Program-made: the position numbers and the translations under genes
Notes under the pieces: generated by a model
The model's input: the letters and a program-made list of their open reading frames with translations, nothing else
What the model was told of the DNA's origin: nothing
Databases searched by the model: none
Shown: positions 26,822 through 43,483 of the stretch, one piece after another
How the letters are laid out: each line of letters opens with the position of its first letter
Numbering within the stretch: position 1 is the first letter of the stretch
Origin: an uncultured Rubritalea sp.
Lineage (GTDB): Bacteria > Verrucomicrobiota > Verrucomicrobiia > Verrucomicrobiales > Akkermansiaceae
Length of the DNA stretch: 43,483 nt
Assembly (NCBI GenBank): GCA_937132085.1
Contig: CAKZNV010000074.1
Span: 1-43,483, forward strand
Direction of reading: 5' to 3'

Positions 26822-26906
26822 TGGTTACGGGAGTAGGATTTGAACCTACGATCCCGCGGCTGCGGGATTATTAGCCTGACGAGCTACCTGGCTGCTCTTC
26901 TCCGTA
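26822..26906 (-). pseudogene. Rearranged tRNA-fMet-like sequence, copy 2
   Basis: Carries the tRNA 3' part (T-arm, acceptor, CCA) and the D-arm (GAGCAGCCAGGTAGCTC) of tRNA-fMet. The anticodon region is replaced: loop CTAATAA would read AAT, and a GC hairpin ATCCCGC-AGCC-GCGGGAT stands where the 3' anticodon stem and variable loop should be, so the anticodon stem cannot pair. The 5' acceptor TACGGAG can pair partly with TCCCGTA. Judged non-functional or highly unusual. It overlaps the last codons of the GIY-YIG gene. Confidence 0.6.
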
Positions 26907-42426: not shown

Positions 42427-42526
42427 GAAGCAGGAAGCGAAAGCACGAAGCCGCAAGCGTCAGACTAGATAACTAGATTCAATAACACCTAACGCTTGCG
42501 GCTCCCCGCTCCGTCCTCCGTGCTTC
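42427..42526. repeat. Imperfect 35-bp inverted repeat (REP-like) after sppA
   Basis: Arms at 42427-42461 and 42491-42526 share the outer GAAGCA end and the inner GCCGCAAGCGT block with several differences between; the loop of 30 nt includes CTAGATAACTAG. Could act as transcript-end structure or be a dispersed palindromic element. Confidence 0.6.
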
Positions 42527-42626: not shown

Positions 42627-42664
42627 AAGAGCCATCTTATGGACATGATTCATAGATGGCTCTT
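42627..42664 (+). promoter_or_regulatory. Perfect 11-bp hairpin around the selenoprotein start codon
   Basis: AAGAGCCATCT (42627-42637) pairs exactly with AGATGGCTCTT (42654-42664); the ATG at 42639 and the one at 42645 lie in the 16-nt loop. AAGAG in the left arm is the nearest thing to a Shine-Dalgarno. The structure would limit translation unless opened. It is followed by a short T-rich run, so a weak terminator is the alternative. Confidence 0.5.
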
Positions 42665-43483
42665 TATTATGTCCGCACTCACCACCACTCTCATATCCAG
42701 CTGTTCAGCGACCGACTCTGACACACCTCCAGAAATTGGGACAATTGAATGGAAGACCGATTACCCAAAAGCACTCGCTGAATCTAAAAAATCATCGAAA
42801 CCCATCTTCGCCCTCTTCCAGGAAGTCCCCGGCTGAGCAGGTTGTCAGCAGTTTGGTCAAACTGTTCTCACTCACCCACTCCTCGTCGACACGGTAGAAT
42901 CTACATTCACCCCCATCCTCATCCGCAACAACGTCGCAGGCAAAGATGCCGAGCTACTTAAGAAATTCAATGAACCAGCCTGGAACTACCAAGTGGTCAG
43001 ATTCCTAGACAGCTCAGAGAAAGACATCATCCCCAGAAAAGACAAAATATGGACGATCGACAAACTCACTGAGCGAATCCAGCAGACACTCACTAAACAA
43101 GAAATCAAAGCACCAAACTCGCTCAGACTCCTCAAGCTAGAAACCGAAACTAGCAAACAAAAAACTATCGCTCTAGCCATGCATTGCTTCTGGACTGGTG
43201 AAAGAAAGCTCGGTGCCATCGAAGGAGTCATCCTCACCGAGGCAGGCTGGCTCGATAACAACGAAGTCACCCTAGTCACCTACCATACCGACAAAATTAC
43301 TCTATCGGATCTACTAGACAAAGCTGCCGCCATCGACTGCGCCCACAAAGTCTATCTATCCACAGCCAACGAACGTAAAACAGCAGAAGCTCTCAAACGC
43401 TTCTCCATCGGCAAACTAGACAACAGCTACAAAAAGGCCAAAATCAACGACCAGAAAAAACAACTCTCAGACACCAAATACGC
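42639..43483 (+). CDS. Predicted selenoprotein lipoprotein, thioredoxin-like and MsrA-like (in-frame TGA; 3' end outside window)
   Basis: 281 codons to the window edge, with one TGA at 42834-42836 (position 66) read as selenocysteine. The N-terminus MDMIHRWLFIMSALTTTLISSC is a lipoprotein signal (lipobox LISSC). A thioredoxin-like domain follows, with the redox site FQEVPG-U-AGCQQFG (U66-x-x-C69). Residues about 178-235 are MsrA-like: ALAMHCFWTGERKLGAIEGVI with Cys183 in the GCFW position, then VTLVTYHTDKITLSDLL. A short ORF ending at the TGA is rejected because the frame is open for 215 more codons of recognisable domain sequence and a SECIS-like stem-loop follows. A TGC-to-TGA mutation or read error is the alternative. 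Confidence 0.82.
42834..42866 (+). promoter_or_regulatory. Candidate bacterial SECIS element at the in-frame TGA
   Basis: TGA at 42834-42836; AGCAGTTT (42847-42854) pairs with AAACTGTT (42859-42866), 8 pairs including one G-U, apical loop GGTC starting 18 nt after the TGA. Bacterial SECIS elements have the loop 16-37 nt downstream with a G among its first two bases; both conditions hold. Confidence 0.7.

Follow-up and report, generated by a model that had tools for sequence, protein, structure and literature searches.

A very likely VPGU-type selenoprotein joining a thioredoxin-like and an MsrA-like domain in an uncultured Rubritalea sp.

The end of a 43,483-nucleotide stretch of DNA from an uncultured Rubritalea sp. 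(assembly GCA_937132085.1, contig CAKZNV010000074.1; hereafter the window) carries a gene in which an in-frame TGA at 42834-42836 very likely encodes selenocysteine (Sec). By model score, the predicted product belongs to NF041383 (Trx_VPGUxxT_two, "VPGUxxT family thioredoxin-like (seleno)protein, type 2"). The reading that we favor with reasonable confidence, from the sequence and by analogy with PilB of Neisseria, is that of an NF041383 selenoprotein whose Sec66/Cys69 pair would act in cis as a relay to Cys183 of an attached MsrA-like domain, with a substrate of the sulfoxide type. The gene is a clean case in which a standard caller would leave a 65-residue stub despite a full selenocysteine machinery in the genome, and the comparison offers a testable function, in which electrons would pass in cis from a Sec-thioredoxin to a reduced MsrA-like site. 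The features concerned, all on the forward strand, are listed below.

42639-43483, plus strand: coding sequence of the selenoprotein, incomplete at the window end; it continues on contig C122, bases 78-192 including the stop codon, to 319 residues
42702-42704, plus strand: Cys22, predicted lipidation site in the lipobox ISSC of a signal peptide (from sequence; Cys in 15/73 alignment rows)
42732-43109, plus strand: thioredoxin-like domain, residues 32-157, of DsbH / DsbD-gamma type (Pfam Thioredoxin_7; fold matches with Z 12-14)
42834-42836, plus strand: TGA codon, very likely selenocysteine 66, first position of UxxC (frame reading, Cys/Sec homologues)
42843-42845, plus strand: Cys69, second residue of the UxxC pair, invariant in the family (73/73)
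42847-42866, plus strand: SECIS-like hairpin with a stem of 8 base pairs and the apical loop GGUC (42855-42858), 18 bases downstream of the TGA
43146-43481, plus strand: MsrA-like domain, spanning residues 170-281 within the window, with a further tail on C122 (profile-profile E 3.5e-16; fold Z 13-15 to MsrA)
43185-43193, plus strand: Cys183-Phe184-Trp185, equivalent by alignment to the catalytic Cys-Phe-Trp of MsrA (Cys and Trp 73/73)
43263-43265, plus strand: Glu209, equivalent by alignment to the general acid Glu94 of MsrA (71/73)
43338-43340, plus strand: Cys234, at the place of MsrA Tyr134 by alignment, candidate resolving Cys (Cys 55/73, Val 13/73)

From the ATG at 42639 the frame stays open for 281 codons to the end of the window when TGA is read as a residue, and the only TGA is codon 66. 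The NF041383 model spans this codon in a single match (residues 32-280, 315.8 bits, E = 3e-94), which places the two sides in one protein and excludes a chance continuation of the frame. A preliminary description of the window, made from its letters, had already joined the two sides and had placed the TGA within VPG-U-AGC, as the first position of a UxxC motif, which agrees with the translation. Its start codon and open frame stand, while the length that it gave was too short. The window ends in 77 bases that recur exactly as the first 77 bases of another contig of the same genome, C122, and are found nowhere else in that genome. Shared ends of 77 bases are typical of neighboring contigs from a k-mer assembler, so the join is likely to be real; across it, the frame reaches a TAA stop after 319 residues.

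The preliminary description had called the gene a selenoprotein and had proposed searching the genome for selA, selB, selD and selC and aligning homologues at position 66. The search returned the complete set: selA (502.6 bits), selB (305.6 bits), selD (373.4 bits, with an in-frame TGA of its own) and a tRNA-Sec (58.3 bits, with which ARAGORN agrees, anticodon TCA). In the alignment (A2; 73 rows, 72 Cys relatives and the window), the residue 66 column is Cys in all 72 relatives, giving Cys or Sec in every row; the rows had been chosen by a [UC] motif, yet among 80 loci only Cys and Sec are found at this position. TGA occupies it in eight homologues besides the window, and Sec forms are under-counted because the search pattern had Cys at position 66. 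A tRNA-Sec above 58 bits, a cut set above matches of 47-53 bits that resemble class II tRNAs, was present in six of seven genomes with a TGA form versus 4 of 15 with a Cys form (one-sided Fisher about 0.015, calculated by hand). Together with the hairpin described below, the machinery and the Cys/Sec homologues bear out the selenoprotein call. The open frame would also be expected if TGA had been reassigned to Trp or another residue throughout the genome, and nothing else was found that points that way. Relatives have Cys at position 66 and never Trp, and the genome has the sel genes and a tRNA-Sec whose anticodon is TCA, which led us to reject reassignment to Trp. The further TGA codons that were detected lie at known Sec sites of MsrA and SelD. 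Genome-wide reassignment is the least credible of the explanations considered.

The SelD gene just mentioned (genome G000, contig C201, 41132-42058, L051) has its in-frame TGA in SCGGUASK. A second selenoprotein of the genome, an MsrA (G000, contig C246, locus L002, 1210-1989, minus strand), has its TGA in GMGUFWG and is membrane-anchored, with a long C-terminal extension.

The published bSECIS model has an apical loop of 3 to 9 bases with a G in the first two positions, a stem of 4 to 16 bp, a distance of 16 to 37 bases from the TGA and an energy limit of -7.5 (PMC13188914). The hairpin of the window agrees with it in loop (GGUC), stem (8 bp) and spacing (18 bases); it folds with -12.9 kcal/mol over 55 bases, within the limit, and with -7.2 over 39 bases, narrowly short of it. 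Its stability against shuffled sequences was not significant on its own (z -0.66), and the weight lies on the comparison with relatives. Scored in the same manner, 9/9 TGA genes versus 2/73 Cys genes have a hairpin with a stem of 5 bp or more whose apical loop contains GGU (Fisher 2e-10, a value that is only indicative because the criterion was fixed after the TGA folds had been seen and the rows are related; the GG/GU loop itself comes from the published model). The apical loop starts at base 22-23 in four TGA genes (the window, L057, L131 and L028) and at base 29 in the other five (L070, L090, L091, L097 and L102). An ordinary Rfam scan of the window returned tRNAs only. A Cys form from a Methylacidiphilum-labelled MAG (L094, 2189-3121) has a 9-bp AGGU hairpin 3' of its Cys codon, possibly a relic of a former Sec state.

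We consider it strongly supported that SelB and tRNA-Sec would decode the TGA with the aid of this hairpin. If instead the TGA came from faulty sequencing or assembly, or from a nonsense mutation that had struck a Cys gene, the true product would be a Cys protein or a nonfunctional stub of 65 residues. The codon is indeed one base away from TGC or TGT and most relatives have Cys, but such an accident is very improbable in a genome that has the complete Sec machinery and in which two more genes, both of selenoprotein families, have in-frame TGA codons, in a frame that is open to a normal stop, with TGA recurring in eight other records and with a hairpin nearly confined to TGA genes.

The score to NF041383 exceeds the curated cut-off of 275 bits despite the truncation of the protein at the window end. 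A 2026 review names this family as a VPGU selenoprotein, formerly the hypothetical protein OS_HP5 (PMC13188914), and no function assigned to it was found. The window has VPGU at the motif ending in position 66, and its relatives have VPG[C/U] or IPGC. The Thr expected three positions after Sec from the family name is absent, with Cys there in the window and in all 73 rows; since relatives with UxxC or CxxC pass the NF041383 model, the name VPGUxxT is not literal for type 2 and a Cys at this place is compatible with membership. All aligned homologues share with the window copy the [VI]PG[C/U]xxC motif and a C-terminal half with C[FY]W (Cys183-[Phe/Tyr]-Trp in 73/73 rows). The preliminary description had looked for novelty in the UxxC pair and in the MsrA fusion, and both are general features of a catalogued family. 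Within it, the window copy represents the Sec form and has a lipobox; it is at most about 50% identical to the relatives sampled, has Sec at the same place as the family, and defines no new type. The type 1 model, NF041382 (Trx_VPGUxxT_one), matches only the N-terminal half, with 123 bits, far under its cut-off of 350, and stops before the MsrA-like half.

Eight tested relatives pass the NF041383 model, and those passing come from Verrucomicrobiota, Planctomycetota, Actinomycetota (Acidimicrobiales), Bacteroidota, Myxococcota and Thermodesulfobacteriota. Among 387 genomes sampled from the phylum, 10, including that of the window, have a member over the cut-off, two of them with TGA. A tree built from 81 sequences requires five changes of the Sec label (four to five in bootstraps), at least two of which are forced by well-supported branches, and the window groups on it with L028 (support 96/84), the one further TGA gene of its bacterial family. 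As read from this tree, Sec and Cys have been swapped several times in the family. These swaps, along with a decoding hairpin at two spacings, would make the family useful for studying the origin and decay of SECIS elements.

The N-terminal half had been proposed to be thioredoxin-like and the protein to be a lipoprotein. The AlphaFold model of the part encoded in the window (pLDDT 92.7) matched, over residues from about 28 to 157, 3f9u (Z 14.2), DsbH (13.1) and DsbD-gamma (12.6), which along with the Pfam Thioredoxin_7 match supports the former proposal. DsbH and DsbD-gamma domains have the same fold, are likewise exported and carry their redox pair where the first helix begins, behind the first strand, but they lack the VPG[U/C]xxC motif and the fused MsrA-like half. 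Residues 18-22 (LISSC) fit the lipobox pattern of a signal peptide, which makes the lipoprotein proposal plausible; the sequence contains an export signal, and the exported protein is probably lipidated at Cys22. A lipobox is found in only part of the family. By eye, the Acidimicrobiales members L110, L111, L113, L117, L118, L121 and L130 seemingly have no signal peptide and may act in the cytoplasm.

The C-terminal half had been described as MsrA-like, with Cys183 in HCFW. The position of this Cys is correct, and both profile and fold comparisons agree with the assignment. Residues 170-281 superimpose on H. pylori MsrAB (7e43) with Z 15.0 over 106 residues (rmsd 2.3) and on Clostridium oremlandii MsrA with an rmsd of 1.5-1.7 Å, and a profile-profile comparison against 18 MsrA or MsrA-like sequences taken from the genomes analyzed gave E = 3.5e-16. 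The scores to PF01625 (19.9 bits) and TIGR00401 (19.5 bits) stay below the curated cut-offs of 23.7 and 108.1, respectively. In the MsrA profile alignment there are two gaps of 17 and 15 columns, with approximate edges, which take out the NPTY segment and the D-x-G-x-Q segment and align Cys234 with Tyr134. The NPTY segment carries Tyr82 by E. coli numbering. Both proton-donor tyrosines, Tyr82 and Tyr134, thus lie in gaps or are replaced (by Cys234 or Val), within the approximate gap edges. In MsrA these two residues help to bind and protonate the sulfoxide, and Glu94 is the general acid (PMC6210582). Since two segments are lost while Cys183, Phe184, Trp185 and Glu209 are kept, the domain is a descendant of MsrA in reduced form. 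It shares with MsrA, including the Sec-MsrA of C. oremlandii, the fold (Z 13-15), the Cys-Phe-Trp motif and the general-acid Glu, but two MsrA loops, about 17 and 15 residues long, are absent from it. In the C. oremlandii enzyme, moreover, Sec is in the MsrA domain, whereas in the window protein it is in the thioredoxin domain.

In the reading that we favor, the Sec66-Cys69 pair would give electrons in cis to Cys183, as suggested by the anatomy of the protein and by PilB, in which a thioredoxin-like domain recycles the Msr domains (PMC6210582). The MsrA-like domain would reduce an oxidized sulfur substrate, presumably a sulfoxide and most simply methionine sulfoxide, and Cys183 could be recycled either directly or through a Cys183-Cys234 disulfide. 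Because Cys234 is replaced by Val in 13/73 rows, it is not essential throughout the family. A membrane protein of DsbD/CcdA type would be the upstream electron source, for which DsbD transmembrane homologues in the genome are candidates. PilB (a fusion of thioredoxin-like, MsrA and MsrB domains) likewise has an exported thioredoxin-like domain before an MsrA domain in one chain. The window protein differs in having no MsrB domain and no C-terminal resolving Cys, in an MsrA half without the Tyr82 and Tyr134 segments, and in the Sec of its thioredoxin half.

Methionine-sulfoxide repair by this protein is plausible. Since both tyrosine segments are gone, another sulfoxide or an oxidized thiol as substrate is a serious rival. 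One version, which we hold only tentatively, is that members of the family are selenoenzymes that reduce themselves within a single chain, and that their MsrA-like half, deprived of the sulfoxide-binding tyrosines and having gained an active-site Cys234, reduces something other than the methionine sulfoxide of proteins in the cell envelope. Alternatively, Sec may hold, but the MsrA-like half may have lost its activity on methionine sulfoxide and serve as a thiol-based module for substrate binding, disulfide exchange (with another oxidized thiol) or metal binding. The loss of the Tyr82 and Asp129-Tyr134 loops beside a retained Cys183, Trp185 and Glu209 would fit such a module, as would the true MsrA enzymes that the genome encodes separately and the weak profile hits on heavy-metal-associated domains (E 0.02-0.14). 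However, the CFWxxE motif and the general-acid Glu are retained almost throughout and the profile and fold matches to MsrA are far stronger than those to metal domains, so that a heavy-metal-associated domain was rejected as the best reading of this half and a non-Msr module of any kind seems to us rather unlikely, if less so than an error at the TGA.

The genomic context yields no function. Upstream, at 221 bases from the selenoprotein gene, is the gene for the signal peptide peptidase SppA. When the ORFs flanking 80 relatives were clustered in search of a conserved operon partner, neighbors were shared among close relatives only; immediate neighbors vary, and none that is conserved links the gene to methionine-sulfoxide repair. 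Between SppA and the selenoprotein gene there is a palindromic repeat (42442-42510; 22-base arms, 82% complementary), whose half-site GAAGCCGCAAGCGT matches 24 genomic sites with at most one mismatch (control, 0), several of them in inverted pairs about 45 bases apart. By these properties the palindrome is a dispersed REP/MITE-like element. Past the selenoprotein gene, at about 1475-1680 of C122 (L003), an open frame resembles the start of a site-specific integrase and adjoins a tRNA-like stretch in which ARAGORN makes no call. Elsewhere in the window, a tRNA called as Ile with anticodon AAT, unusual for bacteria, is found at 26822-26906 on the minus strand; it scores 29.9 bits, just above the gathering score, and overlaps an ORF.
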